Part shown: in pieces, positions 1-19,111 of the stretch
Layout of the letters: each line of letters opens with the position of its first letter
Position numbering within the stretch: position 1 is the stretch's first letter
Virus record (IMG/VR): IMGVR_UViG_3300028025_004323
Coordinates: 1 to 59,583 of that record
Direction: 5' to 3' (one strand)
Source of the DNA: a virus
Length of the DNA stretch: 59,583 nt
Translations under genes and position numbers: made by a program
Notes under the pieces: generated by a model
Told to the model about the DNA's origin: nothing
Database searches by the model: none
Seen by the model: only the letters and a program-made list of their open reading frames with translations

Positions 1-150
1 TTTGTGGAACAACCAACCGTTTATTCTGATGTTTTTGTTGAAAGAGGTAAACAAGGTGTGATGGAAGTGAACCTAAGATTAGGTGAAGTTGACAATATGG
101 GAGAACTAAGTGTGTATAGTGGAGGGTATTTTAAAGTGAAAAAACAATAA
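1..150 (+). CDS. C-terminal end of a virion-type protein (5' truncated)
   Basis: An open frame enters from the left edge in frame 1 and stops with TAA at 148-150, giving the last 49 residues of a protein. The tail is rich in Gly, Val and charged residues and ends in a short basic stretch (KVKKQ). No domain can be recognised from this fragment. It sits directly upstream of a late-type TATTTATA signal and the virion genes that follow, so it is probably also a tail or baseplate component, by context only. Confidence 0.75.
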   Translation, partial: FVEQPTVYSDVFVERGKQGVMEVNLRLGEVDNMGELSVYSGGYFKVKKQ

Positions 151-156
151 AAATTA

Positions 157-164
157 TATTTATA
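157..164 (+). promoter_or_regulatory. TATTTATA late-type signal
   Basis: Exact TATTTATA in the gap between two virion genes, 11 nt before the ATG at 176. This spacing allows a short leader if it is a -10 type element. No conserved -35 box is visible. Confidence 0.45.
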
Positions 165-175
165 AATAAAAAGAT

Positions 176-1099
176 ATGGCAGTAGGAAGTTATGGTATAG
201 TAAGACCCGCAGATGTATCACCAGAAGATGTTGAGATTTTATATCATTATACTTCTGGTAGAACAACCACGGCACCAATTACCTTGACAAGATTGAATGC
301 TGAGGACGTTTTAACACCAGTATACCACAATGCAAATACTGTTGATGATTCTAATGTCCAAGGAAATGAAATCTTGGGAGGTTTGTACAATTTAAAGTTA
401 ACAGCTGAGAAATTCTCAGAACTTGGTGTTTACACATTACATCTTAGACCAAAACAAATTAGAACCTCAATCACAGATTGTGGAGTCTTAGCATCATTAC
501 CATCTGTTAGGGGTTTAGTTATCGATTTAAATAACGTACCTGCGGCATATAGAAATAGATTTACACCACAAGGTTTAGTTGGTTATAGAATTGAATATAT
601 TAACACAAATAGTTTCCAAAAAATACCAAACTTTTACAGAGTTGTTACATCCTCATTTTATTGTCAACCAATAGTATCAAATTTATCCAATTCAACAGAT
701 AAAGCAATACGTTACCAATATACTGACCAAACATCAAATTTGGTGTTTTTAACAATAACACCTTCATCATCACCATCGAGTAGACCGAATGTGGTTCCAT
801 TTATTGGACAACCTGGACAAAATATTATTCTAACAAATACATTTTTTAATCCAACCACACTTGAAATAGAAATGGTAGAACATGATGCAAGTACATTGGC
901 TCACGCTCTATACGGTAATCAAACTAAGGCGATTACTCCAGGCATCTACACTATCTATGACAACAATAACAATAACGCAATATACAAACAATTTAACTTG
1001 TATGAAGTTAAAGACCAATTCAATGAAACGATGTATGAGGTTAGAGAAGAGAGAGAAATCATTGATGAAAGTTTAGACTTTGACAACATTACCGAATAA
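176..1099 (+). CDS. Putative tail/baseplate structural protein
   Basis: A 307-residue protein with no recognised domain, signal peptide or membrane segment. It is rich in Thr, Asn and beta-branched residues, as expected for a beta-structured virion component, and ends in an acidic tail of about 25 residues. There is no Shine-Dalgarno sequence; a TATTTATA signal lies just upstream. Its TAA shares one base with the ATG of the giant baseplate-type gene that follows, so the two are probably translationally coupled and their products may sit in the same substructure. The structural role is inferred from neighbours only. Confidence 0.6.
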
Positions 1100-4000
1100 T
1101 GGCAAAATTTACAAAGGTACCAAGCCAAGCGGCGAATGGATTACAAACGTTTAGTGATAGTTTAGTCGGTGTACAAATTACCGACGGTAGCAGTCAATTA
1201 ACCAATACCAACTTTGCGTTAGATAAAATTATCCCACAAAGAGATAGTAAAAATTTTAAAACGTCACCATTTTCGGATTTCTTAACGTTAGATTCATTAA
1301 AAGAAGAGACAACTGCTGTAACTACACAAGACGGTGTTGCGGAGAAAAAAGAAAGTATTAAATTCAAAGGTAGTACTGACGATGCGGGTAAATCTTTATT
1401 CGGTTCATTAAAACAAAGATTAAACGTATCAATTTCAAGAATTGTAAAAAAGTTTCCGGCAGCTCTTTATGTTGATGGTACAATACCTGTTAGAATTTCA
1501 GATTATACTGCACAGAACATCACATACGATACAATATCAAAAACAACACAGTTTGAGATAGAAAAATCAAGTTTATATAATCCATTTGATATTGTTATTA
1601 ACGAACCACAAAGTTTAACAATTAGTGAGACAAGTAACAATTTTAGAAATTTTTATTCCACATATAAAAAATACGTTGTAGATTATAGTGGAACAACTTA
1701 TGATATATTATCATATTCCGAACCAACAAGTACCACAAATATTACTTTAAAGGTTTCAGGTAATCCATTTAGTGGAGTTACAGGAACTACAAATAGTTTT
1801 TTAATTAGACCCAATAATGGGGTAACTGAAGAGTTCTTTAATAATTTAGATGACTTAGAAGAACTTTTACTTAATAGAGAAACCAATCCAAAATACGAGG
1901 CAAGTTTTAAAGTACCAAGAGATAGTTCTGATGGAGGAACAACAGATATTATTACTGTTGAAGTTAATTGGCCGTTAGCGTTAGATGGATGGAACTTACA
2001 AACTGTAGGTTTAGATTTTGATGATTACATTTCAAAATTAAGTGATTTAGCTGACGAGATAGATGATTATAAATCTAACTTAGTTGTTAGATTTTTAGCT
2101 GCACCACAGTTATTTGAATTCGACACAAATGACAAAAAGGGAGAAACAATATTTCAATTATATGGACAAAGTTTTGATAGGGTAAAAAAATATATTGATA
2201 ACATTGCTAACATGAGAAATGTTACATATGATGGTATTAATAATGTTCCCGATTTATTATTAAAGAATTTATCAGATAATTTAGGGTTAGATTCACATAA
2301 TTTATTTAACGAACAAAATATAGAAGATACTTTATACACAAGACAAAATAGTGTATATGGAGGACAATCAATTGGTAAAAACTTAATTGAATCTGAACAT
2401 GAATTTTATAGAAGATTATTAGTTAATCTTTCACACATTTATAAATCAAAAGGTACAAGGAACTCAATAGAATTCTTTTTAAGATTTTTAGGAGCACCTG
2501 AACCAATGATTAAAATAAACGAGTACGTTTATAAAGTAAAATCTAAATTAAATGATAACGTACAAAGTGACGTTTATAATTTAATACAAGGTACAAAAAC
2601 CGAATATGTTATTACTGGTTATACAGGTAGTGAGTTTAATGGAGGTACAATAACAGGTACAACTAATTTAACTAGAGATGAATATCCGGTTGATACCGAT
2701 GGACTACCTAGAAAAATAACAAATGTAAAAGATGATATTTTTTTCCAAAAGGGTTCAGGTTGGTATGATTTAACATTAAGTCATAGGTCTTCAGATGTTT
2801 TAGACGAAAGTACATCTAGCGGTACAACTATCAATGGAGTTTTCCAATTAACAGGAAGAACTAAAACTATAAAAACTAAATCTAAAGATTATACATACGG
2901 TGAGGATTATTTTAATTATTTTAGAATATTACCTGGATTAGAATATGGTTTTGAATTAGAACCTAAAATAGACAATTTAAAAATAAGTGTTAGTGATGAC
3001 GAATACGATTCTAAATTAATTCTTAATAGAAAGAACATTGGTGTTTATTTATCTTCCGCGCAATGCATCGAATATGACATTTATAGACAATCAAGAAATT
3101 TAGAAATTTCAATCGGGGGAATTACACCACAATATACGTCAGGTGTAACATTCGAAGAATTTACTAAAGAAGTTTTAAATGGTTTTATTTCTACAAGTGA
3201 ATCAAAATATAATAAATCATACTTTACATTAGAACAGGTTTATAATGAATATGTAAAGAATACAAATTTTGTTCCTTTTAATGACGTTGATTTAAATGAG
3301 TTCATAACTAAGATGAGTCCTAATTGGATGAAAATTATTGAACAGTTTATTCCTGCAACAACTTTATGGACAGGTGGTAATTTAACTGAAAATAATTTAT
3401 TTAATAGGTCAAAACACACATATCTTAGACCAAGATATGCAATACCTAATGACAATTCAAGAGACGGTTTAGATTATCAGTGTGATGATATAATGCCGTT
3501 AACACCTACACCAACCCCAACACAAACCAAAACTCAAACACCAACACCAACACCAACTAAAACACAAACACCAACACCAACACAAACTGTCACACCAACA
3601 CAAACAGCAACACCTACACCTACACCAACCCTAACGATTACACCAACGGAAACACCAGCAGCCACACAGACTCAAACTCCGGCAGCCACACAGACCCAAA
3701 CACCTACATCGACACCTGCAGCCACACAGACCCAAACGCCAACTTCCACACCACCGGTTAGTGGTTATAGTTTACAAATATATGTTAGAGATATAGATGC
3801 AACACCATCTACATTAACATTATTCTATAGTAAAAATGGTGGAGGTTCTATAAATGTGCCAGGTGCCACGGCAACAACATTATCAGGAACTTGTACATTT
3901 GTTCATACTATAACAGGTTTAAGTTTAAATGATAGTATTGTGTTTGGAACAAGTGTTACATGTGTTATGAATGGAAATGGATCATCATCAACTTGTCCTT

Positions 4001-5946
4001 TTTCATCAGGAAGTGATACAACATTTACATATGTAATTGATGCACCAACAATACAACAAGTTGCATTGACAATAGATAGTGGTACAATACCATCACCATC
4101 ATCACCGCCACCTGAAAATAGAACCGCATATGTTACTGCGTGGACAAGAGATACAGTTGATTTAACAACAATTAAGTCGGAAGTATGTGGTGTAAACGAA
4201 CAACAATTATCTATAAATCTTGGATATACCCAATTAAATAGTGGTAACCTTTATGTAAATGAAACAAGTATCACATCAGGAACAACATATCAATTATACA
4301 CTAGTAATGTAACAACCAATGGTACAACACCTGATGGTGTCGGTAAATGGTATGCAATTAAAATACAAGGAGCTTCGGGTAACTTTACAACAATAGCATC
4401 AATTAATAGTAGTGGAGTTATACAAGACTGGACATCATGCACTACCTCACCACCACCATCACCATCATACGGTATAAGTGTAAGTCCAGATAGTCGAGAT
4501 GACTTAGGAGGTGCGTTTACCGCAACAGTAACTGCTGCGAATATTTCATTCCCTCAAACGCTTTATATCACCATATTAAGTACATCTGGAACGGTTAATT
4601 TAAATGACTTTCAAAATAATTTCCCATCAACAATTACATTGAATCAATCAGGACAAGAATATTCATTCTCATTAGCTGAAGACCAATTAACCGAAGGTAC
4701 TGAGAAATTTAAATTAGAACTTAGAAGTGGAAGTGCTTCTGGAACCGTATTGTACACATCAAATGAAGTGACAATTACCGACGGTTCATTAAGTCCTGTT
4801 TATTATCAATTATCACCTTGTGCAGGTGGGTCTAATGTTTACTCAATACTTAAACCACCGGGAACATTTACTAGCGGACAGAGAGTAATGGGAAGTTCAG
4901 ATACCTATTATGTTGCGGGAAATACATTTACCGTAGACCCTGACCCTAATGGAACTAAGTATGATGTTACTGCCGTTTCACCAAGTATCAATGGTTGTCC
5001 TGAAGTGACACAACCACCTGCACCACCAGTAGCATTGGATTTTAATATTACAGGTGGATGTTTAGGTGGATCTGGAACGGGTACAATAAGTATTGGGTCT
5101 TTTACCGGTGGAACAAATTCTTATAGTAGTGTCAAAATTGGAAATACTGAATCAAATGCTGCAACGTCATCACCAATTGATTTAAATAGTGATACTTCTT
5201 ATTATTGGTCAAATTTAGCAAATGGAACTTGGTATGTTTTATTGTACGATAGTAATGGTACTTCTAAAATGAAATCTGTAACAATTAGTTGTAACACACC
5301 TGTACCATCACCATCACCAACACCAACACAAACACCAGTATCAACAGCACCTACTTATTTAACATCTCTTGGGGCAAGATGGGAATGTAATAGTGGTACT
5401 GTTTACCAATACGATATATATCAAAATACTAATCCGAACTTCACAGGAGATCAATATAGAAACGGAACAAGCGGAACTCAAACATTTGCATCAATTGATG
5501 CAATGTTAAGTTCAGCACCAAGTACCTCAGCTAATTGGGTTAATTCGGGTTCACCATATTGCTCAATAGGGGTTCAATATCAACTAAAAATTAATAATAA
5601 TCCATGTTCATCAACATATAATACGACGGATGCAGTTGCAACAGGTAATAATTCAACATGTTGGCAAATGTCCGATCTTTATTATTTAACATGTGCCAAT
5701 GCCAAATCATTAACTAGCCCGTACCAATCGTTTGTACTAAATGGTACTTATAAATATTTTTTAAATGGAACCACCCCAACAGAATGGGAAGATTCGGGAT
5801 TAGTTATGCAAGGCGAATGGTTTTTTAACGACCAATTCGGATCACATCAAAGAATATTTAATGATGATGGAACAATTCGTAACACAGACACTGCCGAATG
5901 TGTGGTTGGTGGCGGTGATGGAGGTGACCCACTTCCAGGAGGTTGA
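1099..5946 (+). CDS. Giant baseplate/tail protein with Thr/Pro linker and beta-domains
   Basis: A 1615-residue protein. The N-terminal half (about 1-790) looks like a baseplate protein. Around residues 435-470 there is a segment with [19 protein letters not shown] that resembles the conserved core of P2 gpI-type tail proteins (Tail_P2_I). Residues 802-887 form a low-complexity Thr/Pro/Gln linker with three near-identical sub-repeats. The C-terminal half is a string of Gly/Ser/Thr-rich beta-domains; residues about 1125-1230 resemble a Calx-beta domain ([11 protein letters not shown] near its end), and a second short Pro/Thr spacer lies near residue 1405. It ends in [12 protein letters not shown]. 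Such an architecture, an anchored base plus a mucin-like stalk plus adhesive domains, suggests a baseplate component that displays binding domains. The baseplate part is moderately certain, the binding role inferred. Confidence 0.7.
3502..3756 (+). repeat. Thr/Pro-rich coding repeat (mucin-like linker)
   Basis: Low-complexity run built from ACA/CCA-type codons inside the giant baseplate gene. It encodes alternating TP, TQT and AATQTQTP units. Three copies of a 20-nt unit, identical apart from one C/T position, lie at 3658-3677, 3682-3701 and 3718-3737, showing local duplication at the DNA level. Confidence 0.85.
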
Positions 5947-5970
5947 TAAAAATAAAACAATTACAAATAA

Positions 5971-5978
5971 TATTTATA
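5971..5978 (+). promoter_or_regulatory. TATTTATA late-type signal
   Basis: Exact TATTTATA only 4 nt before the ATG at 5983. If it is a -10 element, transcription would start at or inside the start codon, giving a leaderless message. It may instead help translation initiation. Confidence 0.4.
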
Positions 5979-5982
5979 AAAT

Positions 5983-7602
5983 ATGAGTTTCTTAAATACA
6001 GGGTTTACACCCACAGTTTCAGCAAGATTAACTAAGGCAGGTAGAAATGCCATTGCTAAAGGTGATTTCTTAATTAGTTATTTTTCTATAGGTGATTCTG
6101 AATATAATTATAATTTAAGCGGTCTTACAAGTCAACGAGTATTCGCACCACTTGATAAAAATACACATGTTAAGTACCCATTTTTATATTCAGCAACCGG
6201 TTCCACAATTTATGGTATCCCCGTTGAAAGTCCAGATGATGAAAATCAACAATGTAGAAATATAATCACAGCGAATAGTGGATGGACATTAAACACAGTT
6301 TGGGAAAATAAACCATTAGGTGTTAGTGATACAATAGCATTAAAAGACTATCAAAGCAATGTTTATAGTGGTGTTAAAAGTTATTTAGGATACACATCTT
6401 CAACAGGTCAAACTTTTGTTAACTATTCGGGAGGAACAATAACAGGTACAACAATAAGAAACACAATGTTAGAAGAGGTTGAAATATTACCTGAAGAACA
6501 AAATTCAATTGCAATTTTACATTATTCAGAAAGTGGTACTACAGTTGACCCGTATAAGTTTTTTAAATATGATGACTATATTAGTAATTATAGCGGTACT
6601 CCAATATATGATACAACTAAAAATCCTAGTAATAAAAAAGATGTTGATTTTTTTGAAGTTACAATACCAAATTTAATGTATCATAGATTAAGTGATAATT
6701 CCACAGGTACAGTATTTCATATGAGTACGGGAAAAACAAAATCAGTAACAAGTGAATATAATTCAGACTTCCAACTTGATTATGTTGATTTATTAGACGT
6801 TAATGAATATAGTGTCGGTAAAATTTTCTTTAATCAAAAAATTATAGTATTTGATGACCAAGAAATTGTTGCCGCTTTAGATACAGGTTCTACCAGAAAT
6901 TATACACTTACAGCACCAAAAGTTAGTAGTTATATTACAAATGATGACCCAATTACAGGTTTAACGACAGGTCAAACGTTATGGGTAACATATGTTTTAA
7001 ATGGAGGTACAGTGTCAGGAGATTTACCTTGTAGTTATTTTATGAAAGTAACGGGTACAACTAATGATGAAAATGTTAGCGTTAAATTTAATAGCGGAGG
7101 ATTTAAACATTTAAATAGTGGTTATAATGCAACACAAATTCATATACTACACCAATTTACAGATAACGGAAAACAACCAGACCCAAATCTATGGTACAGT
7201 AAAAATTATACAAATGAGTTATCAAGTATAAACGATTTAAAAACAGGATTCTCATTTATATTAAATGAGACTAAAATAGACGAGGCAGAAAATAATGGAT
7301 ATTACGTTTCTTCTTTAACAAATTTTGGAAAAGAAAGGACGTATAGTGAAGGGACTATAAGTGTGGTTACCGGAACTGACGTTCAAGTAATGAATTTTGT
7401 TATTAACTTACCTGACGGTAAATTCACAACATCTCAAAACCCAACAAAATATAATCCAAATGGTACTGAAAAACCTGGATATAAATATATTACTGAAGTT
7501 GCTTTATTAAATTCAAATAAAGAAACAATGGTTACGGGTAAGTTTAGTGCACCCACAAAAAGAGAGGCCATTCAAGTTTTTAATGTAAAACTTGATTTCT
7601 AA
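5983..7602 (+). CDS. Baseplate or tail-fibre protein, collar-fibre-like N-terminus
   Basis: A 539-residue virion protein. Residues 12-40 (ARLTKAGRNAIAKGDFLI, then FSIGDSEYNY) match the general pattern LTxAGRxxxAxG...xxxGDxE seen at the N-terminus of P2 gpH/DUF3751-type tail-collar fibre proteins. The rest is Gly/Thr/Asn-rich with predicted beta structure and no membrane segment. It follows the giant baseplate gene after a 36-nt gap containing a TATTTATA signal, and is the last gene of this virion block before replication genes begin. Start chosen at the only well-placed ATG. The precise substructure is not determined. Confidence 0.65.
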   Translation: MSFLNTGFTPTVSARLTKAGRNAIAKGDFLISYFSIGDSEYNYNLSGLTSQRVFAPLDKNTHVKYPFLYSATGSTIYGIPVESPDDENQQCRNIITANSGWTLNTVWENKPLGVSDTIALKDYQSNVYSGVKSYLGYTSSTGQTFVNYSGGTITGTTIRNTMLEEVEILPEEQNSIAILHYSESGTTVDPYKFFKYDDYISNYSGTPIYDTTKNPSNKKDVDFFEVTIPNLMYHRLSDNSTGTVFHMSTGKTKSVTSEYNSDFQLDYVDLLDVNEYSVGKIFFNQKIIVFDDQEIVAALDTGSTRNYTLTAPKVSSYITNDDPITGLTTGQTLWVTYVLNGGTVSGDLPCSYFMKVTGTTNDENVSVKFNSGGFKHLNSGYNATQIHILHQFTDNGKQPDPNLWYSKNYTNELSSINDLKTGFSFILNETKIDEAENNGYYVSSLTNFGKERTYSEGTISVVTGTDVQVMNFVINLPDGKFTTSQNPTKYNPNGTEKPGYKYITEVALLNSNKETMVTGKFSAPTKREAIQVFNVKLDF

Positions 7603-7641
7603 GGCTTTACATTTCTAAAAATATTCATTATATATTGTTAT

Positions 7642-8259
7642 ATGAGTATAGATGTAAAATTAAAAAACAAGCCAAAAATCTTAGGACTCGATATTTCGAC
7701 CAAGACAATTGGGTGGGCACTGTTCGATATGACAGGGTCTAAATTATTAGAATTAACACATTTTTCCCCAAAAATCAAACCTCAACCTGAGGACAAGATT
7801 GAAGAATTAATCTTAAAGGCGGAAGCATTTAAAAAACACTTATTAGGTTATAAAGATGTTGGTATTACCCGAGTTATAATTGAGGAACCATTATTACAAT
7901 CAAATAATGTTTACACAATTGGAACCCTATTAAGATATAACACGTTGATTCTTAAGTCATGTTACGACGTGTTAGGAATTTTACCAACATTTATTTCAAC
8001 ATATAATTCAAGAAAATTTGCGTTTCCTGATTTAGTTGGAGCGAACGACAAAGGTCGTAATGTTTTATTTGGTGGTTATCCAAGAGACATTGATAAGAAA
8101 CACGTAATTTGGGAACATGTAAATGCAGTTTGTCCTGATGTTAATTGGTTATACGGTAAAACGGGTAATCTTAAAAAAGAAAATTACGATATGGCCGATG
8201 CTGCAACTTGTGTGATTGGTTATGTTAACATGAACAAATTAGAAAAATCCGGCAACTAG
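7642..8259 (+). CDS. RuvC-like nuclease (Holliday-junction resolvase fold)
   Basis: A 205-residue protein with the RNase H-like fold signature of RuvC-type resolvases. Visible acidic catalytic positions are D17 in LGLDIST, E81/E82 in VIIEEP, and D183/D186 in NYDMADAA near the C-terminus, in the usual order and spacing. In phages such enzymes cut branched DNA before packaging or during recombination; here it would act on products of the downstream recombination genes. It stands alone between virion genes and a structured RNA. No Shine-Dalgarno is seen; an AT-rich stretch (TATATTG near 7630) lies upstream. Fold assignment is fairly secure, substrate specificity unknown. Confidence 0.75.
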   Translation: MSIDVKLKNKPKILGLDISTKTIGWALFDMTGSKLLELTHFSPKIKPQPEDKIEELILKAEAFKKHLLGYKDVGITRVIIEEPLLQSNNVYTIGTLLRYNTLILKSCYDVLGILPTFISTYNSRKFAFPDLVGANDKGRNVLFGGYPRDIDKKHVIWEHVNAVCPDVNWLYGKTGNLKKENYDMADAATCVIGYVNMNKLEKSGN

Positions 8260-8287
8260 TATTTTACTTTACCGATTGTTTATCATA

Positions 8288-8295
8288 TATTTATA
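8288..8295 (+). promoter_or_regulatory. TATTTATA signal ahead of a structured RNA
   Basis: Exact TATTTATA with no start codon nearby. It is followed within about 15 nt by a hairpin and then by an intrinsic terminator. It is therefore the one copy of the motif that cannot be explained as a translation signal. Confidence 0.5.
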
Positions 8296-8300
8296 AAAGA

Positions 8301-8370
8301 AGACGGGAAGTGTAGAAATACACTTTTGGTTGGTTTCCCTCGGAGGTGGTGTTCCGGGGGATTTTTTTTT
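8301..8370 (+). ncRNA. Candidate small phage RNA with GNRA hairpin and terminator
   Basis: About 70 nt of non-coding, G-richer sequence between the RuvC-like gene and the primase gene. The 5' part forms a 7-bp hairpin (8308-8314 with 8319-8325) capped by a GAAA tetraloop. After an 11-nt U/G-rich linker comes a second, 8-bp hairpin (8336-8343 with 8354-8361) followed by nine T residues. A TATTTATA signal ends 5 nt upstream of the proposed 5' end. The second hairpin carries GGAGGTGGT, which could pair with the 3' end of 16S rRNA (anti-Shine-Dalgarno) allowing one G-U pair. No tRNA features (T-loop GTTC-A-NNC, acceptor stem) are present. It could instead simply be the terminator region of the upstream gene. 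Confidence 0.5.
8336..8370 (+). terminator. Intrinsic terminator
   Basis: Eight-pair stem TCCCTCGG / CCGGGGGA (one T-G wobble) with a 10-nt loop, followed by nine T residues. It isolates the replication operon starting at 8400 from upstream transcription. Confidence 0.8.
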
Positions 8371-8385
8371 ATCAATTTTTTTACA

Positions 8386-8393
8386 TATATTTC
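8386..8393 (+). promoter_or_regulatory. TATATTTC, Bacteroidota-type -7 element
   Basis: TATATTTC lies directly after the terminator T-run and 6 nt before the primase ATG. It matches the TAnnTTTG consensus of Bacteroidota promoters except for the last base. The -33 region is only T-rich. It probably starts the replication operon. Confidence 0.45.
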
Positions 8394-8399
8394 TATAGT

Positions 8400-9344
8400 A
8401 TGGTAAATCAAGAAGTTGACTATTCTCCTGTTATTGAAATTCTCGAAGATATTTTGGGTGACTCTAATATGCATAATGATTATAAAGGACAGATGTCTTT
8501 TGATTGTCCAGTGTGTTCATATGACATAAAAGGATTGGACCACGGTGACGGAAAAGGAAATTTAGAGGTCAACTACAAATACAATGTTTTTAAATGTTGG
8601 GTGTGTGCCGAATCACACGAAACTCACGGATCAATTTTTAAATTGGTTAAAAAATTCGGCAATCCAAAACAATTAAAAAATTATCTATTATTGAAACCTG
8701 ACGAAGGTGAAGATTTTAGTAAACGTGTTTATAAAACAGTAAAACTACCCCAAGACTTCATACCATTTAAAGAAGCGAGTGAGGGTCTTAAAATGACACC
8801 ATATTATAAACAAGCATACAACTATATAAAAAGTAGAAACATAACAGACTTAATGGTACAGATGTACAACATTGGTTTTTGTTATAGAGGTATCTACGAA
8901 AATAGAATTATCATCCCATCGTATGATTGTGAAAGGAGAATTAATTATTTTATTGCACGTTCTTATTTGAATAGAACAAAGATGAAATATAAGAATCCTG
9001 AGGCACAAAAAGAACTTATCATATTCAACGAGTACTTGGTTGATTGGAATGAAACAATATACATTGTGGAGGGAGCATTTGATAGTATATTCATACCTAA
9101 CGCAATTCCATTGTTAGGAAAATTTATGAGTGACCATTTATTTCACACTCTATATGAAAAGGTTAAAGGTAAAATAATCATTGTTCTTGACCCAGATGCT
9201 TGGAGTGATGCCGAAAGATTATATCATAAATTAAATTGTGGTAAATTAATGGGTAGGGTCTTTGCCATTAAATTAGAGGGTGATAAAGATATTGCCGACT
9301 TACAAGGAAAATTAGAAAATTATAAAATAAAACAACTAGATTAA
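8400..9344 (+). CDS. DnaG-like DNA primase
   Basis: A 314-residue primase. A zinc-binding domain is formed by C36-x2-C39 and C66-x2-C69, and the C-terminal half holds a Toprim catalytic core with the acidic motif IVEGAFDS near residue 223 and the metal-binding VLDPDAWSD near residue 263. It would lay RNA primers for lagging-strand synthesis, like T4 gp61. I chose the ATG at 8400 instead of a GTG at 8346, because the longer form would start inside the terminator hairpin and add a poorly coding Phe/Tyr-rich stretch. Its stop overlaps the ATG of the next gene, making it the first gene of a replication and recombination operon. Confidence 0.85.
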   Translation: MVNQEVDYSPVIEILEDILGDSNMHNDYKGQMSFDCPVCSYDIKGLDHGDGKGNLEVNYKYNVFKCWVCAESHETHGSIFKLVKKFGNPKQLKNYLLLKPDEGEDFSKRVYKTVKLPQDFIPFKEASEGLKMTPYYKQAYNYIKSRNITDLMVQMYNIGFCYRGIYENRIIIPSYDCERRINYFIARSYLNRTKMKYKNPEAQKELIIFNEYLVDWNETIYIVEGAFDSIFIPNAIPLLGKFMSDHLFHTLYEKVKGKIIIVLDPDAWSDAERLYHKLNCGKLMGRVFAIKLEGDKDIADLQGKLENYKIKQLD

Positions 9345-10204
9345 TGAATTTAAAAGACATCTCATTAGAGATTAACGACTTATTAGAAAAGAAAAGACAA
9401 GAATTAGAATTAACATTCATAGAAGAACAACATATCTATCACATGAAAGATGTTGACGGTGTTGTTAAAAAGAATTTTCCTTCAGTTTCTAAAATCATAA
9501 AGAAATTTCATAAACCATTTGATGCTGAAGGTATGGCACTTCGTATGTCAAAAGGAGACCCTGAAGGTCAAGCACAATTACTCGCGGAATGGAAACAAGC
9601 GGGTGACCTATCAACCAACATGGGTAGTAGAGTTCACTTTGAATTGGAATCCGATTTGATTGGTAGGTTTGATAATTACAAAGAAGTTAGACAACCGATA
9701 TTTGAAATCAACGAAGAACAACAACGTAAGAGTGATAATATGATTATTGCGGGAAAACAATTCCTTGATTTAATGTTAGAAAGAGGTGGAGTATTATTAG
9801 ATACTGAAATCGTATTAGGTGATCCTGAAGAACAATACACAGGACAACCTGATAAGGTGTGGTTAATGGAAACTAAAGAGAAAGATAATTTTGGGTTTGT
9901 CATTACCGATTGGAAAACAAATCAACCAAAAAACTTTGAAGTACATCATTATACTGGTAAATTGTACCCACCATTTAACAATTATCATGATAATGCATTA
10001 GGACATTATTATTTACAACTTCCATTATATGGTAGGTTGTTACGTAAAATGTTAAAAGAAACAAAATACAACGATACTAAATTGTTGGGAAATGTTGTGG
10101 TTCTATTAAAAGATGACGGTACATTTGTAGAGTACAAAGTTCCACCCCAAATTAATAATGCAATCCTTACAATGGATTTATCAAACTATATTAAAAGATG
10201 GTAA
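9344..10204 (+). CDS. PD-(D/E)XK nuclease (RecB/Cas4-like)
   Basis: A 286-residue nuclease with RecB-family motifs in order: an early GSRVHFELE helix (motif I His) near residue 95, GQPD with D170, the D189-W-K191 core of the PD-(D/E)XK site in ITDWKTNQ, and a trailing HYYLQLPLYGRLL helix with the conserved Q-x3-Y pattern. Such enzymes resect DNA ends or process recombination intermediates. It lies between primase and the SbcD-like subunit with overlaps on both sides (1 and 7 nt), so it is expected to be made with them. The nuclease family is clear; whether it degrades host DNA or processes phage ends is not. Confidence 0.8.
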   Translation: MNLKDISLEINDLLEKKRQELELTFIEEQHIYHMKDVDGVVKKNFPSVSKIIKKFHKPFDAEGMALRMSKGDPEGQAQLLAEWKQAGDLSTNMGSRVHFELESDLIGRFDNYKEVRQPIFEINEEQQRKSDNMIIAGKQFLDLMLERGGVLLDTEIVLGDPEEQYTGQPDKVWLMETKEKDNFGFVITDWKTNQPKNFEVHHYTGKLYPPFNNYHDNALGHYYLQLPLYGRLLRKMLKETKYNDTKLLGNVVVLLKDDGTFVEYKVPPQINNAILTMDLSNYIKRW

Positions 10205-11022
10205 AAAAAATTATACATATTGCGGATTTACATATCCGCACAATTCAAATGCACGATTTATATAAAGAACAGTTTCAAAAACTGTTGGACGAATTAAGTG
10301 TAAAATTCTTAGAATGGGCAGATGAAAATATATCTCATAACGAAATTAGAATTGTTGTTGCGGGTGATATCGCACATCAAAAAATTAATATCTCAAATGA
10401 ACAATTATTATTAACGAGTTGGTTTTTAAAAGAGTTAACTCGTTTTGGTAAGGTTGTAATCATACCGGGTAATCACGATTTCTTGGAGAATAATACACAA
10501 CGTATGGATAGTATAACACCAGTCGTTCAATTATTAGACAATCAACACATCACATACCTAAAAGATAGTGGTGATTATGTTGATACCGATGGTAGCGTTC
10601 AATGGGTTGTTTATTCATTATATCAACACAACGTAAGACCTGAATTTACAAAACAAGAAGGTTTATTAACGGTTGGACTGTTCCATGGACCTATCATGGG
10701 ATTGTCAACTGATTTGGGATTTGAATTTGAAGATGCGTATGACCGTTTAAACTTTGTTGATTTGGATTTATTGTTATGTGGTGACATTCATAAGAGACAA
10801 CAGTTTACATTACCTAATGGCGGTAAAGCAATTATGGTCGGTAGTCTTATTCAACAAAACTTTGGTGAAACAGTTAAACATCATGGTTACGGAGTTTATG
10901 ACGTAGAGACAGACGGATATACATTTCACGATTTACCAAACGAACAACCATTCCTACATTTCACCATATCAGACATAAAAGACATTGAAAATGGAGAAGA
11001 AGCACACGTTAACCTTGGATAA
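10198..11022 (+). CDS. sbcD: SbcD/Mre11-like recombination nuclease (T4 gp47-like)
   Basis: A 274-residue calcineurin-type phosphoesterase. All five metal-binding motifs are visible: ADLHI (D10, H12), VAGDIAH, PGNHDF near residue 95, FHGP near 162 and CGDIHKR near 197. With the Rad50-like protein encoded downstream it would form the gp46/gp47 complex that resects double-strand ends for recombination-dependent replication. It is shorter than bacterial SbcD, as usual for phage versions. Its start overlaps the preceding nuclease by 7 nt and its end overlaps the following small gene by 32 nt. Confidence 0.85.
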   Translation: MVKKIIHIADLHIRTIQMHDLYKEQFQKLLDELSVKFLEWADENISHNEIRIVVAGDIAHQKINISNEQLLLTSWFLKELTRFGKVVIIPGNHDFLENNTQRMDSITPVVQLLDNQHITYLKDSGDYVDTDGSVQWVVYSLYQHNVRPEFTKQEGLLTVGLFHGPIMGLSTDLGFEFEDAYDRLNFVDLDLLLCGDIHKRQQFTLPNGGKAIMVGSLIQQNFGETVKHHGYGVYDVETDGYTFHDLPNEQPFLHFTISDIKDIENGEEAHVNLG

Positions 11023-11503
11023 AGAGTTTATTCTTTATTGTGAGTTAAATAACATAAAAGATATAAGTAAAATTGCAAACGAAACCTTCAATAGAGGGTT
11101 TTCTTTGTTAAAATATGGTGAAACACCATCAGGAAATATAACTGAAAAAGAAAAAATTGTTGAAGTCATTAAAGAGGTGACAGTTGAAAAAATTATCTAT
11201 CAAGACGTTATTAAAGAGGTGGAAGTTATCAAAGAAATCCCTGTTGATAAAATAGTAGAAGTTATTAAAGAGGTACCTGTTGAAGTAAAAGGGGAAACTC
11301 AAATAATAACTCAAGAAGTAATCAAAGAGGTAATCGTTGAGAAACTAATTGAGGATAATGAATGTAAAAATATGTTAATAACTTTAACAGAAGCAAATAG
11401 TAAATTAAAAGAAGAATTAGATACTTTAACAAACGCATTAAATAAATTCAACAAAGGTTCTTTTATGAAGAATAGTGATTTGAATAGTTTATATGATGAA
11501 TAA
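10991..11503 (+). CDS. Val/Glu/Lys-repeat protein in the sbcDC operon
   Basis: A 170-residue protein of unknown function. The first 45 residues resemble a small helical, ribbon-helix-helix-like module (short beta strand, then two helices). Residues about 50-115 consist of imperfect repeats of the type EVIKEVPVEK, followed by a C-terminal coiled-coil-like helix. I chose the ATG at 10991; a TTG two codons upstream is possible. It overlaps the end of the SbcD-like gene by 32 nt, so coupling is likely. A similar Val/Glu repeat recurs in the envelope protein at 17132. A DNA-binding or scaffold role is a guess. Confidence 0.65.
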   Translation: MEKKHTLTLDKEFILYCELNNIKDISKIANETFNRGFSLLKYGETPSGNITEKEKIVEVIKEVTVEKIIYQDVIKEVEVIKEIPVDKIVEVIKEVPVEVKGETQIITQEVIKEVIVEKLIEDNECKNMLITLTEANSKLKEELDTLTNALNKFNKGSFMKNSDLNSLYDE

Positions 11504-11551
11504 TTTGTTTTTAACAATAAAATTTATTATATTATTATAAAATATATAAAC

Positions 11552-11860
11552 ATGGAAATATTATTATGGGCATTTATGGCCTACGGAATGACAAACATTT
11601 TAATTTGGGGTTCTATTTTTGAAAACCAACGTATATGGATAAAGGCACACTCAAAATTTTTTGGTGACTTAATAGGTTGCACATTGTGCACTTCAACTTG
11701 GGTTGGATTTTTTATGTCACTTGTTTTGGGTAGCATAACAACAAAGTATTTTGATACCCTTTGGATTATTAATCTATTCTTTGATGGTATGTTTACCGCA
11801 GGAATAGTTTGGGCAATAAACGGAATCGTCGAATTTTTTGAAGAAAGTAGAATTAAGTAA
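11552..11860 (+). CDS. Small membrane protein with a C-x2-C motif
   Basis: A 102-residue, strongly hydrophobic protein with three likely membrane segments (about 1-20, 48-66 and 70-92). The core motif GCTLCTSTWVGFF resembles the CxxC-x-x-W-V-G pattern of DUF1360-type membrane proteins found in phages and bacteria. An AT-rich stretch (TATTATTATAAAATA) lies upstream. It ends just before the next gene. Function unknown; the family similarity is recalled, not verified. Confidence 0.65.
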   Translation: MEILLWAFMAYGMTNILIWGSIFENQRIWIKAHSKFFGDLIGCTLCTSTWVGFFMSLVLGSITTKYFDTLWIINLFFDGMFTAGIVWAINGIVEFFEESRIK

Positions 11861-11861
11861 T

Positions 11862-12521
11862 ATGTCACAACAAAAAAGAAAATTTAGATACATAAGGATT
11901 AATGGTAAGGTAATCCAAGACCCATTTGATGATGAGGATATGAGAAAACTTTTCATATCATTTGCGGAAAAAGTATTGGGATTAAAATTCATTAGCGGTA
12001 CCAAATATGGTATTGATTTAGTATGTGTAGACAACCCATCATGGGGTGCTGAAGGTGAAAATGGTTCATTTCAGGGAGATAGATGGGCAGGTAATCAACA
12101 AGATATTTTTAATCTCGGATTTGCGGGTCTTAATATGCAAAATTGGAAATGGTTTTATTTTGGGTTGGGTGAATTGTCTGAAAGAAATACTGGCAAATGG
12201 TTGACATCACATCCAGGTCATGATAAAAATATATATTTTAGAGTTAATGCACAATTTGACCAAATTTGTATGGTAGAAGCTCAAACAATAAAAGACTTTA
12301 ATAAAATCAAATTTGTCTTTAATAGGAAAGTTAGTAATAGTGATGATCCGGAAGATTGGATAGTAATACCAAAAGAGTTTGTACGTACATTTAATAAACA
12401 ACCCAACGGAGAATGGTTAGAAAATGGACCATATTGCGGACCAACACAAAAAGAATTAGAGGATATGGAAAAAGAATTTACTCAACAAAGAGTAAGAGAA
12501 GTTATGTTTGCAAATAAATAA
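11862..12521 (+). CDS. Conserved hypothetical protein between SbcD and SbcC
   Basis: A 219-residue soluble protein without a domain I can name with confidence. Residues about 40-75 (GTKYGIDLVCVD, then WGAEGEN) have the beta-strand/acidic pattern of restriction-type endonuclease folds, which would suit its place in a recombination operon, but the catalytic Lys cannot be placed. The start is the ATG at 11862; a TTG at 11838 would overlap the upstream gene. The region about 125-165 contains alternating Phe/Ile strands and the C-terminus is a charged helix. Treat the nuclease idea as weak. Confidence 0.6.
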   Translation: MSQQKRKFRYIRINGKVIQDPFDDEDMRKLFISFAEKVLGLKFISGTKYGIDLVCVDNPSWGAEGENGSFQGDRWAGNQQDIFNLGFAGLNMQNWKWFYFGLGELSERNTGKWLTSHPGHDKNIYFRVNAQFDQICMVEAQTIKDFNKIKFVFNRKVSNSDDPEDWIVIPKEFVRTFNKQPNGEWLENGPYCGPTQKELEDMEKEFTQQRVREVMFANK

Positions 12522-12528
12522 TTAATTA

Positions 12529-14862
12529 ATGAACCCATTTATAAAAGTAACTTGGCAAGACGTACCTGAGAATTTTACACCTGAAAAAATCAGGAGAGTA
12601 AAGTCATACTTTCAGGAGAAATACAATTCCAAGAACGTACAAGTAATTACAAAGACATTAGCGAATGTTAATGAAACTCGTTTGGAGTCTTTAGAGGCAT
12701 CTGATAATATTTTGGACCATCAGTACCAAAAGAAATTAATGAAAGATTTCATTAAGGATAATTCTATCGATATTAAATGGGAATTGGTTGATAGGTTAGA
12801 TAATAAAGTTAATACACAGATAGATAAATTAAATGAAAACAAAGTCAGATACAACAAATGGTTCATTAAAAGAGTCGAGTTTTCTAATTTTTTATCTTTT
12901 GGTGATTCTAATGTTATTGACTTCACTGGCCTCGATGGTATTACAGTAATAGAATCAACACCCAAAAATTTTGGAGGCAAGTCCACATCATCCGTAGATT
13001 TATTAATGTTTCTTTTCTTCAACTCAACAACTAAAACCAAAACCAATGGTGAAATCTTTAATAGATTCACCGATAAGGATGAAGTTAGTGTACGAGGTGA
13101 AATAACAATCGATGGAGATGATTATGTTATTGAAAGAAAAACATTAAGAAAGAAATCAAAATCAGGAGATTATACAGTTACCAATAAACTTGAATTCTAT
13201 AAAAGAAAAGAAGACGGGGAAATTGAAAATCTTTCGGGTGAACAAAGAAGAGAAACCGAATCGTTTATTGCATCTGCAATTGGTACTGAGGAAGATTTCC
13301 TCTCAACTATTTTAACCACTGGTTATAATTTAGAAGAACTTATTGAATCTAAACCAACGGCTAGAGGTCAAATCCTCACCAAATTTTTGGGTTTAGAAAG
13401 TTTGAAAGCAAAGGAAGAAATTGCAAAAGAAATTTATAACGATTGGAGTAAGAAGTTAGTATCTAACACATATAACAAAGTAACTTTAGAATTGGACATA
13501 ACCAATTATAAGGAAAGTCTTAGTAATTCCGAGAATGAAATTGAGCGACTCACAAAAGAGTTAGGTAAGTTTCAAAAGGAATTAGAAAAGTTAGAAGGTA
13601 AAAGAGATGAGGTTTTCTTAAAAAGAAATAATGACGTTGATAGGGAACTAATCAACACAAACCCAACGTTACTACAAAGAGAAATCAACGATTTAACAAC
13701 ACAAAGAAACACAAGTCAAACCAATGTTGATGGTGTCACCGTAATTGAACCTTCACAATTCTACCACGAGGATCAACATAAAGAGTTGAGAGGTCAGATG
13801 GCAAATCTTCAGGGAATTGATATTGCATACAAATACGAAAAAGGTGATAAGGAAAAATTAATAAAACAATTTGAAGAAGGAACCGTTTGCCCAACTTGTA
13901 ATCGTGCATTAGATGAGGTAGACCATACAGATGAAATCGAAAAGATTAAAAAAGAAATCGAAGACATCATCAAGGAGATGGAATTAAATCAAATACAGTT
14001 TGATTTATTAAAAGAACAGGAGAAAGGATTTGAAACATTAAAAACTGAGTTTGAAACTTACGAAAGAAATAAACTTCGTAAAGCTCGTTATGAATTGGAA
14101 GTTGAACAAAAACAATTAGAGATTGATAGTAAACAAAAAAGATTAGACAATTACGAAAGTAATAAAAAGAAACTTGAAGACAACCAAAAGATTGACGCTG
14201 AAGTCATTGCACTTAAAACTAAAATAGAAACTGCGAACGGAGACATCAGACAAACAAATACCAGTATTGAAAAACATACCAATAACATTACAAACATGAA
14301 TGAGAAGATTGGTATCAATGAAGAGTTAATTAAAAAGATTATCGCAGAGGAAGAATTGTCTGCGGTGTTTAAAATCTATTTAACTGTTTATGGTAAGAAC
14401 GGTATCTCTAAGATTATTCTTAAGAATATGATCCCATTAATCAATCAGGAGTTGTATCGATTATTGGTAGACAGTTGTCACTTCATTTTAGAGATGAATA
14501 TAAACGATAAGAACGAGGTTGAATTTATTATGATAGATACTGAGACCCGAATCGTTAAACCTCTTAATGCGGGGTCTGGTTACGAAAGAACCATATCATC
14601 ATTAGCACTTCGTAGTGTGTTAACCAAGATATCGTCGTTACCTAAACCAAACATTGTGGTTATGGATGAAGTGTTCGGAAAGATTGCTGATGAGAACTTG
14701 GAAATGGTGGGAGAATTCTTTAAAAAGATTAAAAATTACTTTGACCACATACTTGTTATATCACACAATTCTTTAATACGTAACTGGTCGGATAACATCA
14801 TTATGATTAAAAAAGAGGAGAACGTATCGTCCATAGATTTTATTACAACAAAAATTTCTTAA
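12529..14862 (+). CDS. sbcC: SbcC/Rad50-like recombination ATPase (T4 gp46-like)
   Basis: A 777-residue SMC-type ATPase, partner of the SbcD-like nuclease. The nucleotide-binding loop is at 145-153 (PKNFGGKST, K151), a long coiled coil spans about 300-640 and is broken by a zinc-hook C454-P-T-C457, and the Walker B site IVVMDE (D713, E714) lies near the C-terminus, preceded by a signature-like stretch with NAGSGYERT near 680. The P-loop lacks the usual first Gly of GxxxxGKST, which is unusual but compatible with ATP binding through GGKST. The N-terminal 110 residues form an extra domain before the ATPase head. It closes the replication and recombination operon. Confidence 0.9.
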   Translation: MNPFIKVTWQDVPENFTPEKIRRVKSYFQEKYNSKNVQVITKTLANVNETRLESLEASDNILDHQYQKKLMKDFIKDNSIDIKWELVDRLDNKVNTQIDKLNENKVRYNKWFIKRVEFSNFLSFGDSNVIDFTGLDGITVIESTPKNFGGKSTSSVDLLMFLFFNSTTKTKTNGEIFNRFTDKDEVSVRGEITIDGDDYVIERKTLRKKSKSGDYTVTNKLEFYKRKEDGEIENLSGEQRRETESFIASAIGTEEDFLSTILTTGYNLEELIESKPTARGQILTKFLGLESLKAKEEIAKEIYNDWSKKLVSNTYNKVTLELDITNYKESLSNSENEIERLTKELGKFQKELEKLEGKRDEVFLKRNNDVDRELINTNPTLLQREINDLTTQRNTSQTNVDGVTVIEPSQFYHEDQHKELRGQMANLQGIDIAYKYEKGDKEKLIKQFEEGTVCPTCNRALDEVDHTDEIEKIKKEIEDIIKEMELNQIQFDLLKEQEKGFETLKTEFETYERNKLRKARYELEVEQKQLEIDSKQKRLDNYESNKKKLEDNQKIDAEVIALKTKIETANGDIRQTNTSIEKHTNNITNMNEKIGINEELIKKIIAEEELSAVFKIYLTVYGKNGISKIILKNMIPLINQELYRLLVDSCHFILEMNINDKNEVEFIMIDTETRIVKPLNAGSGYERTISSLALRSVLTKISSLPKPNIVVMDEVFGKIADENLEMVGEFFKKIKNYFDHILVISHNSLIRNWSDNIIMIKKEENVSSIDFITTKIS

Positions 14863-14878
14863 TGTCATTAATTTGACA

Positions 14879-14886
14879 TATATTTG
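14879..14886 (+). promoter_or_regulatory. TATATTTG, Bacteroidota-type -7 element
   Basis: Exact TAnnTTTG match, 21 nt before the ATG of the ClpP-like gene. The -33 position is T-rich but lacks a clear TTTG. Confidence 0.5.
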
Positions 14887-14907
14887 TAAAACATAAACAA
14901 AACATAT

Positions 14908-15588
14908 ATGAGTCAGAAAGAAAAATTTTATAACGATTTTCAATCGTTTGCCAAAAGTGTTGGTGTTAGTTCATTAAAACAACATTATGTTGGAGAACAA
15001 ATTAAAAGTAGTTTAACTCCTTACGTTTTAGAAGAGAGATCTATGAACGCAACCGCTTTAGATATCTTTAGCCGTATGATGTATGATCGTATTATTTTTT
15101 TGGCGGGAGAAGTAAACGATACTATGGCTATGTATACCATTGCACAATTACAATATTTGGATAGTGTTGATGCGAACGACATCACATTCCAAATCAATAG
15201 TCCAGGTGGAAGTGTTTCTAGTGGTTTAGGTATTATTGATACAATGAAATATATTAAATGTGATGTTAGAACAATTAATTTAATACTTGCAGCATCAATG
15301 GGGTCTCTTATATTAGGTGCAGGTACGAAGGGTAAAAGATGTTCTTTACCAAATGCTAAAACAATGATTCACCAATCTTCTGGTGGTTTTGGTGGTGAAT
15401 TTGCAGCTGCAGAAATTCAATTTAAAGAATGGACAAAAACAAATGATAAAATATTTACAATGTTGGGTGAGTATACAGATAAAACATCCGAACAAGTAAA
15501 AAAAGATGCGATTCGTGATTTGTGGTTAGATGCGGAAGAGGCGGTGGAGTATAAAATAATTGATGAGATAATAAAGGATAGAAAATGA
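14908..15588 (+). CDS. clpP: ClpP-like serine protease
   Basis: A 226-residue protease with the ClpP/crotonase fold. The catalytic triad is visible: S130 in AASMGS, H155 in MIHQSSGG, D204 in IRDLWLDAEEA. The substrate-binding INSPGGSVSSGLGI segment near residue 95 is also typical. Length is close to cellular ClpP with about 30 extra residues at the N-terminus. It has its own upstream TATATTTG element and a strong terminator after it, so it is a single-gene unit. No ClpX or ClpA-type unfoldase is next to it. It could use a host unfoldase or act as a maturation protease; capsid genes are not adjacent, which favours the first idea. Confidence 0.88.
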   Translation: MSQKEKFYNDFQSFAKSVGVSSLKQHYVGEQIKSSLTPYVLEERSMNATALDIFSRMMYDRIIFLAGEVNDTMAMYTIAQLQYLDSVDANDITFQINSPGGSVSSGLGIIDTMKYIKCDVRTINLILAASMGSLILGAGTKGKRCSLPNAKTMIHQSSGGFGGEFAAAEIQFKEWTKTNDKIFTMLGEYTDKTSEQVKKDAIRDLWLDAEEAVEYKIIDEIIKDRK

Positions 15589-15597
15589 TAAAATTAT

Positions 15598-15620
15598 AAC
15601 CCCCTTAATTGGGGGTTTTT
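15598..15620. terminator. Bidirectional intrinsic terminator
   Basis: AACCCCC / GGGGGTT stem around a TTAATT loop, with T-runs on the + strand and A-rich sequence on the other side. It separates the convergent ClpP-like and GIY-YIG genes. The minus-strand gene's stop codon lies in the loop. Confidence 0.85.
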
Positions 15621-16330
15621 AATTGATTAGCAATTCTTCCGGTACCTAAAAAATCACCCCAAGAAACCCAACCTCTTTTTTTATAATAACGTTCAGGTCT
15701 ATTTGGTATATTATCAGGTATTAAATTATTTTTACTAAATTCTTTATATTTTAACCCCGTTTTAATATTTAGATTTTTGATTATTTTTTTAGCATCATTA
15801 TAATTTAAATAATTAACATTATTATCCCATAATCTTCCGGTACCTAAAAAATCACCCCAAGAAACCCATCCTTTATTCAAGAAAACTTCTCTAGGATTAT
15901 TAGGTATAAAAATAGGTAAATCATTAGTTTTAATATATTCATACCATTTTGATTTAGAATTAATTTTTGTATTAGATTTAACCCAAAGTTTAACCTCATT
16001 AAATGGTAATTTATATATTAAACCAGCACCACCCATTCCGCCGGTTGATGTATTTGTTAAATTATTAAATTTTTTAATATATTTGATTTCAATTTCTTGC
16101 CATTTATTTTTATTACATTCTTCTAAGATAACATAACCAATATTGAAATTAATACTTTTTAACCATCTATCTTTATGAGTTAATATTTTATTATGTTTAA
16201 ATGAATATTTTGTATTTTGTATATGTCTTTTTAACCTTTTTAAGGGATTATCGGCTTTACCAATATACCTAATTTCATTAGGGTGGTTAATGTCAAATAA
16301 TCCGTAAATGTATGTTTTATTGTTTTCCAT
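15605..16330 (-). CDS. GIY-YIG homing endonuclease with two C-terminal repeats
   Basis: A 241-residue protein. Residues 7-45 carry the GIY-YIG signature (YIYGLFD, then IRYIGKA with a downstream R-L-K-R-H). The nuclease domain extends to about residue 100. The C-terminal part contains two copies of GWVSWGDFLGTGR near 155 and 225, each preceded by a Pro-rich PNxPxxx segment; they look like paired DNA-binding repeats. It is transcribed against its neighbours between a ClpP-like gene and the lysis module, the typical position of a free-standing mobile endonuclease. A TATTTATA signal sits 4 nt before its start codon. Confidence 0.82.
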   Translation of the reverse strand: MENNKTYIYGLFDINHPNEIRYIGKADNPLKRLKRHIQNTKYSFKHNKILTHKDRWLKSINFNIGYVILEECNKNKWQEIEIKYIKKFNNLTNTSTGGMGGAGLIYKLPFNEVKLWVKSNTKINSKSKWYEYIKTNDLPIFIPNNPREVFLNKGWVSWGDFLGTGRLWDNNVNYLNYNDAKKIIKNLNIKTGLKYKEFSKNNLIPDNIPNRPERYYKKRGWVSWGDFLGTGRIANQLKTPN

Positions 16331-16334
16331 ATAT

Positions 16335-16342
16335 TATAAATA
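16335..16342 (-). promoter_or_regulatory. TATTTATA late-type signal (minus strand)
   Basis: Reads TATTTATA on the minus strand, 4 nt before the start codon of the GIY-YIG gene. Its presence on the opposite strand in front of the only gene oriented that way here supports function. Confidence 0.45.
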
Positions 16343-16421
16343 TAATTAAAAAAAGAAAAAATCATAGTTATTATTCGGGGGGTTAAGTAATTTACCGATA
16401 TTCTAAAAGATAAAATCTTCA

Positions 16422-16429
16422 TATTTATA
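16422..16429 (+). promoter_or_regulatory. TATTTATA late-type signal
   Basis: Exact motif 14 nt before the first gene of the envelope/lysis-like module at 16444, diverging from the minus-strand copy at 16335-16342. Confidence 0.5.
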
Positions 16430-16443
16430 ATAAAACATATAAT

Positions 16444-16779
16444 ATGAAGATTGATAAAACAAACATCCTATTAGTTTTGATTGCTTGTTTAGCCGCTTAT
16501 ACCATATTCCAAAATCAAGGTATAAAAACTGACGTTGCAGCATATAACGCTAAAATTGAATCCTTACAAAAAGAGATAGATTCTGTTTATACTGCAAATA
16601 AAGAAATAGACAATCAAATCGAAAAGGTCGATAATCACATTGTTAATGTTGATAAACAAATCGACAACGTAACAAAAAACATAACTATTATTAAAAACAA
16701 CACAGATGAAAAAGTTAATTCTATTATCACTATTGGTAATGTTGAGCTTGAGCAGTTATTCACAAACAGATACAACTAA
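16444..16779 (+). CDS. Membrane-anchored coiled-coil protein (spanin-like candidate)
   Basis: A 111-residue protein. Residues 6-24 form one hydrophobic N-terminal anchor (NILLVLIACLAAYTIF), and the remainder is a polar coiled coil with regular D/N-x-Q-I-D-N heptads, which would lie in the periplasm. This is the topology of an inner-membrane spanin such as lambda Rz. The next gene begins inside it in another reading frame, 74 nt before its stop, as with Rz/Rz1. No holin or clear endolysin is adjacent, so the lysis role is inferred from topology and gene overlap. Confidence 0.65.
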   Translation: MKIDKTNILLVLIACLAAYTIFQNQGIKTDVAAYNAKIESLQKEIDSVYTANKEIDNQIEKVDNHIVNVDKQIDNVTKNITIIKNNTDEKVNSIITIGNVELEQLFTNRYN

Positions 16780-17131
16780 AGTTACTGTATTAGATACAAC
16801 TAAAGTCACCCTACCAACAAGAGTTGCTAGATTGGCCTTTCAAGATTTACTTCGTTATGACGGAGCAAAATTAGAGATTGTTGAATTAAACAATGTTATT
16901 GGTTTAAAAGACCAACAAATTAATTTATTCAAACAAAAAGACACACTTAAGGATCAAAAGATTTCTAATCTTGAATTGATAATCAACAAAAAAGATGAAC
17001 AATTTGGTTTAGAAAGACAAAAGTCGGAAAGTCTATTAAAAGAATTAAAAGGACAGAGAAGAAAGACTTTTTTATATAAGGTAGGGTCTTTCGCGGGAAT
17101 AATTATGACATCCTTATACCTACTTAAGTAA
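16706..17131 (+). CDS. Secreted coiled-coil protein with C-terminal membrane segment
   Basis: A 141-residue protein with a signal peptide (MKKLILLSLLVMLSLSSYSQ) of Bacteroidota style. The cleavage region has no Cys, so it is not an obvious lipoprotein. A Thr-rich spacer, a long coiled coil (about 50-115) and a C-terminal hydrophobic segment (VGSFAGIIMTSLYLL) follow. The gene overlaps the upstream coiled-coil gene by 74 nt in a different frame. Together they resemble a two-component spanin pair, although here the second protein seems anchored at its C-terminus. An alternative is a periplasmic protein affecting envelope integrity during infection. Confidence 0.65.
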   Translation: MKKLILLSLLVMLSLSSYSQTDTTKVTVLDTTKVTLPTRVARLAFQDLLRYDGAKLEIVELNNVIGLKDQQINLFKQKDTLKDQKISNLELIINKKDEQFGLERQKSESLLKELKGQRRKTFLYKVGSFAGIIMTSLYLLK

Positions 17132-17788: not shown

Positions 17789-17795
17789 ATTTGAT

Positions 17796-18239: not shown

Positions 18240-18250
18240 AAAAAATTACT

Positions 18251-18258: not shown

Positions 18259-18293
18259 TCCTACTATCACGTCACTATTAAATTATTCATTTT

Positions 18294-19106: not shown

Positions 19107-19111
19107 TTTAT

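Follow-up and report, generated by a model that had tools for sequence, protein, structure and literature searches.

A putative structured small RNA with a conserved terminator loop between the RuvC-like and primase genes of large phages

Results

The RuvC–primase locus

The window, which is the whole stretch of viral DNA that was analysed (59,583 nucleotides, IMG/VR record IMGVR_UViG_3300028025_004323), contains a gap of 140 nt between a RuvC-like gene and a primase gene. The features of an RNA were located in this gap, all on the + strand:

7642–8259, + strand: RuvC-like Holliday junction resolvase gene, upstream neighbour (phrog_159, E = 4e-8)
8262–8267, + strand: -35/-33-like box TTTTAC, of the TTT(T/C)A(C/T) type; of 36 distinct upstream regions scored, 30 have such a box at a constant distance of 24 nt to the TATA box
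8286–8295, + strand: -10/-7-like box TATATTTATA, containing TATTTATA at 8288–8295, conserved in the variants
8298–8370, + strand: small RNA, matched by covariance model R1 (89.1 bits, E = 4e-23) and backed by covariation
8302–8331, + strand: hairpin P1, with GAC/GTT, a single mismatch, GGA plus a variable stem, and a GAAA (GNRA) loop at 8315–8318; from folding and alignments
8336–8361, + strand: terminator hairpin P2, arms 8336–8345 and 8352–8361, with compensatory changes in all 10 pairs
8346–8352, + strand: conserved P2 loop GTGGTG followed by T; UGGUG is kept in homologues with wholly different stems, the most distant included
8362–8370, + strand: T9 tract of the intrinsic terminator, read from the sequence and ranked first among terminator-like sites in positions 1–20000
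8386–8392, + strand: TATATTT box 3' of the terminator, the probable primase promoter; a similar TAT-rich box precedes the first ATG
8400–9344, + strand: DnaG-type primase gene, downstream neighbour (phrog_47, E = 5e-37); relatives align from residue 1 at ATG 8400

An earlier sequence-only reading had described a promoter-like signal, two hairpins and a run of T in a non-coding gap. Each of these features was found in the sequence, the signal being TATTTATA at 8288–8295. Neither neighbour covers the RNA, since the RuvC-like gene stops at 8259 and the start conserved among the primases is ATG 8400; the start at GTG 8346 merely belongs to the mechanically longest open reading frame. The two hairpins proved real, but the paired region is larger than was described, and the string resembling the complement of the anti-Shine-Dalgarno (anti-SD) sequence is not the conserved part. 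The inner stem of P1 consists of AAGTGTA (8308–8314) and TACACTT (8319–8325) closed by GAAA. In the minimum free energy (MFE) fold two G.U pairs lengthen P1, and GAC/GTT continues it beyond a single-base mismatch; the conserved strands of P1 are GACGGGA and TTTGGTTGG. P2 comprises eight strong pairs, one A-U and one G.U. The string GGAGGTGGT occupies 8342–8350, with its first four bases inside the P2 stem. The 5' end of the RNA may be placed at about 8296–8302; the RNA measures about 70 nt in the window and about 65–80 nt across the group. As the RNA unit lies directly behind the RuvC-like gene, the P2 terminator probably ends upstream transcripts as well. Another terminator palindrome of the window, the symmetric one at 15598–15617, is shared by two convergent genes, at 14908–15588 and 15598–16330 (− strand), the latter GIY-YIG-looking from its raw protein.

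Fold strength and covariation

The window RNA folds with an MFE of −30.4 kcal/mol (z = −4.7), and none of 200 dinucleotide shuffles was as good. Eight divergent homologues, folded singly, gave z-scores from −4.2 to −6.4 each. RNAalifold applied to an unfitted MAFFT alignment of 14 sequences returned two helices, with two-sided changes in 13 of 20 pairs. When 49 distinct sequences were aligned under guidance of the model, 97.7% of the cells were paired, compared with 69.7% after shuffling. Two-sided changes numbered 248 (74 when shuffled) and were carried by 15 of the 20 pairs; the covariation score was 0.730, versus 0.190 for shuffled and at most 0.246 for slid-partner controls. This last alignment was fitted to a covariance model, which biases it towards structure; the MAFFT alignment and the eight single folds agree with it. 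Length differences between homologues are not multiples of three, which together with the covariation (0.730 vs 0.190) points to a non-coding element.

The changes are unevenly distributed. The outer P1 helix (GAC/GUU and GGA/UUU, with a G.A or G.G mismatch between them) is nearly invariant, consisting of G.U, A-U and C-G pairs within a conserved GACGGGA/GUUURGUUGG helix, so that covariation is uninformative there, while the inner P1 stem and the entire terminator stem vary freely with two-sided changes. The P1 loop is GAAA, GUAA or GCAA, or else of a UUAAAA type. The covariance comparison in related phages that the sequence-only reading had proposed thus favours its RNA: covariation is present in both hairpins, and the GNRA loop is either kept or exchanged for the A-rich one. 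Retention of the terminator stem alone, which would have spoken against it, was not seen save in the most divergent homologues (e.g. L029, with terminator and loop). G.U pairs make up about a quarter of the paired cells by our own count in the 49-sequence table. Since these pair only in the + strand, an RNA rather than a DNA palindrome is indicated. From these alignments, the locus almost certainly specifies a structured, conserved + strand RNA.

The same G.U pairs are mismatches on the opposite DNA strand, and in none of three contigs does cumulative GC-skew reach an extreme at this site; a DNA-level or replication element (an origin transcript or primer, or a cruciform) is therefore very improbable, despite the position among recombination and primase genes and the precedent of lambda OOP RNA, once thought to be a replication primer (PMC12197685).

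Distribution and relatives

About 100 IMG/VR contigs carry the RNA unit between a RuvC-like and a primase gene, in more than 44 distinct sequences. An exact pattern retrieved 17 loci, a degenerate pattern 67 viral loci, and the covariance model further ones. Protein searches with RuvC and primase returned many IMG/VR contigs, and where primase identity was about 54% or above the RNA unit was present in almost all. Whole-record scans of 18 phage records of up to 335 kb gave a single strong copy each; a weak second match in G001 was an ordinary terminator. On the primase tree, presence of the RNA changed twice (mean of 19.7 after shuffling), which fits one gain and one loss.

Little of P1 is left in L029, L300, L304 and L037, the most distant homologues; P1 and P2 may therefore not be one functional unit everywhere. 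A different arrangement is seen in L300, L301 and L304 (about 1370–1455): the first hairpin is a different stem of 10–11 bp, a GACGG string has become the 5' arm of the terminator, and the loop UUGGUGU is kept.

Outside this group, a single pattern match was obtained in 84,980 bacterial and archaeal genomes of GTDB (L210, in an Acidimicrobiales MAG); it lies in coding DNA without a terminator and was put down to chance. A DNA search of INPHARED revealed no homologue of the RNA among cultured phages. At the protein level, the cultured phages contain primase relatives that are only about 31% identical, and no RuvC relatives. Flavobacterium phage immuto, the nearest cultured relatives as judged by the primase, have nothing but an ordinary terminator before the primase, and a weak model match at 149704 is a further ordinary terminator. 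With three homologues as queries, no Rfam 15 family scored above cut-off, at gathering or at permissive thresholds. NsiR1 (RF02399), PyrR (RF00515) and rteR (RF04181) have the same layout of a hairpin followed by a terminator hairpin, but they reach only 15–27 bits against gathering cut-offs of 39–72 and share no common conserved sequence with the RNA. Mimicry of CRISPR repeats or of tmRNA, tRNA or rRNA, suggested by resemblances between short strings, was accorded no weight.

Promoter and transcription unit

All 40 distinct variants have TATA(T/C)TTA or TATAATTA, which begins 13–16 nt ahead of the conserved RGACGGG. The sequence between the two promoter boxes is variable and their 24-nt spacing constant. 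This bipartite box with its fixed spacing has the form of an own promoter, and the 3' end is defined by an intrinsic terminator, namely a co-varying GC-rich hairpin followed by a U tract. The comparative evidence strongly supports the proposal that this is a small phage RNA with its own promoter, and judged from sequence conservation the RNA is very probably transcribed independently.

The promoter had been called late-type. The motif TATTTAT, with an A-rich stretch behind it, is enriched upstream of genes, in 79 of 393 upstream regions of G001 (0 of 322 coding controls) and in 14 of 54 of the window (1 of 48 controls). TATTTATA with an A-rich stretch occurs about 15–30 nt before many structural genes, in the window e.g. 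upstream of 5983, 31336, 35124, 45001, 49697, 53142 and 57572, and this combination is probably the late promoter of the phage group. The TATATTTAT box of the RNA resembles that TATTTATA motif, and to this extent the designation holds; it does not account for the additional TTT(T/C)A(C/T) box that lies 24 nt further upstream, and TATTTAT is missing from some variants. TAnnTTTG, a Bacteroidota-type -7 box, is modestly enriched in two of three contigs. The window also has genes for a phage sigma-70-type factor with regions 2 and 4 (18294–19106) and for a NusG-like antiterminator (28731–29255).

The terminator loop

The terminator loop reads GUGGUG and then U in nearly all homologues. UGGUG is kept even in distant ones with a degraded or changed P1 (L036, L037, L124, L300, L304, L029). 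Other terminators of the same phages have GAAA, TTCT or TAAAT loops, so the UGGUG loop is not a general terminator habit. The alternative offered earlier, that the element is simply the intrinsic terminator of the RuvC-like gene and the remainder incidental, would account for a good hairpin with T9 directly behind that gene; it is insufficient, because the terminator stems were rewritten while the loop, the conserved and co-varying 5' hairpin and the promoter stayed, and a gene may even intervene between the RuvC-like gene and the RNA. It is retained as a very faint possibility.

The sequence-only reading had also suggested that the RNA may contact ribosomes, the second hairpin being complementary to the CACCUCC end of 16S rRNA. 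Its premise of an SD-poor genome was borne out: an SD-like motif precedes 3 of 54 genes in the window and 10 of 204 and 12 of 393 elsewhere, and a control interval was no lower. An SD-free genome would suit pairing of the GGAGGTGG segment with the anti-SD, and in the clade of the window a duplex of 9 bp can form (−16.3 kcal/mol). Bacteroidia ribosomes are described in PMC9976891 as having the anti-SD hidden by bS21/bS18/bS6, and bS21 is encoded in several related phages. The complementarity itself is not conserved. GGAGGTG is limited to some lineages and GGAGG is missing in many (CGGCGUGGUGUCC, CAUCGGUGGUGUGG, GUUGGUGUAC); in three of the most distant lineages the duplex gets no further than −5.4 to −7.3 kcal/mol, the median of shuffled sequences being −6.9. 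The pairing moreover requires stem residues, whereas the conserved core is UGGUG(U), in which GGUG is preceded by an invariant U and followed by a near-invariant one, both of them anti-SD mismatches. As GGAGG is not conserved and the flanking U residues mismatch, the idea fails, and the anti-SD reading is barely credible. bS21 genes (PF01165) were counted in 9 of 19 related contigs (e.g. G007:129952–130101 and G001:122185–122331).

No enrichment of the loop complement was found at translation starts of phage genes, and a role of the loop as a seed for these starts was dropped. ACACCA shows a modest excess in coding sequence, with ranks of 57, 203 and 25 of 4096. Neither the translation starts nor the ACACCA counts make a set of phage targets visible.

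Relation to the primase gene

The RNA lies about 100 nt before the primase on the same strand in 170 of 170 scored loci. As nearly all loci have the RNA in front of the primase, a cis role still deserves consideration, i.e. a leader or attenuator that would start at the 8286 promoter and act by regulated read-through of the terminator. Such a leader would share its promoter with the primase, but by a loose sequence pattern 39 of the 40 distinct variants have a TAT-rich promoter-like box after the terminator and before the primase ATG. A class-III aminotransferase-like gene (from 232) sits between RNA and primase in L309. On the other side, a nucleotide-sugar dehydrogenase-like gene, read in L079 (4612–5489), is found between the RuvC-like gene and the RNA, and 15 loci have RuvC at a distance. 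With genes inserted on either side, the RNA unit is separable from both neighbours. By inspection, alternative pairings are all lost as the terminator stem is rewritten, and hence there is no conserved antiterminator; a GGGAA/TTCCC antiterminator pairing considered for the window is lost where the terminator begins with GGGAG or AGGGG. A primase leader is unlikely.

Discussion

The best explanation, held with somewhat better than even confidence, is a stand-alone non-coding phage small RNA acting through its UGGUG loop. The RNA would be made during infection as a separate transcription unit, and the exposed loop would be the site at which it contacts a partner in trans. Rewritten stems around a fixed loop, together with a fixed P1 core, fit an RNA that presents UGGUG in trans, and on this pattern of conservation action in trans appears likely. 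The loop would most likely act as a seed pairing with an ACACCA-type RNA, and the invariant P1 helix with its A-rich apical loop would either bind a protein or make the RNA more stable. No reading is simpler than base pairing with ACACCA-type sites; that the loop does act by pairing is put, from the sequence comparisons, at a little under an even chance.

The main rival to base pairing is protein binding, in which a protein of the phage or the host would bind the P1 helix and the GUGGUG loop, the RNA serving as a sponge, an RNP scaffold or an effector of the RNA polymerase/NusG type. The P1 strands are nearly invariant, with tandem G.U pairs and a mismatch, and the loop of P1 is retained as GAAA/GUAA/GCAA or replaced by an A-rich one. 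An invariant P1 and a G/U-rich loop suit a protein-binding site equally well, and a target signal in phage mRNA is absent from translation starts and ACACCA counts. Genes for a sigma factor and a NusG-like protein are present in these phages, and bS21 occurs in 9 of 19 contigs. Against this, no known binding motif was recognised, and co-occurrence with the RNA was established for no protein gene; protein binding is considered doubtful.

Bacteroidota are the probable hosts, as suggested by SD-free genes, TATATTTG boxes and a remote resemblance to Flavobacterium phages. T4 RNAs C and D are small stable non-coding RNAs of unknown function, encoded in a tRNA cluster; they resemble the present RNA in being small non-coding RNAs of a T4-like phage, and have another size and sequence. 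In one phage with the present RNA (G001, a 335-kb contig), a tmRNA gene with the predicted tag ATSTVAVA and four tRNAs are found at about 86.3 kb (L249:6275–6679). Lambda OOP RNA ends at an intrinsic terminator and adjoins replication genes. It has a similar size (77 nt) and its own promoter (PMC12197685), but is antisense to cII, whereas here the opposite strand carries no gene and the structure itself is conserved. PreS of lambda and VpdS of phage VP882 are described as Hfq-dependent trans-acting small RNAs of temperate phages (PMC12197685). The present RNA is likewise short, within a range of 50–90 nt, and proposed to act in trans; it differs in belonging to large T4-like phages, probably of Bacteroidota, and in being defined by its terminator loop. 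The "moraphages", a large and mainly freshwater phage lineage with predicted Bacteroidota hosts (PMC12619734), are a candidate home of the RNA-bearing phages.

The family would be old enough to occur in phages with primase identities of just about 54%. By the comparative sequence evidence, it appears to be a real and undescribed phage small-RNA family, and its mechanism is proposed from the same comparisons. More tentatively, the terminator hairpin might double as a presentation platform, its stem evolving freely beneath a constant UGGUG loop and the loop contacting a conserved RNA or protein of the host during infection of Bacteroidota. To our knowledge, few small RNAs of large virulent phages have been described, and none of Bacteroidota phages was found in the literature searched. 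The case also shows that reading of raw sequence can detect an RNA gene that is missing from Rfam. The RNA is single-copy, syntenic and strongly covarying, which makes model R1 a ready probe for cultured members, and it offers a clean hypothesis, that the UGGUG loop would be the functional end.
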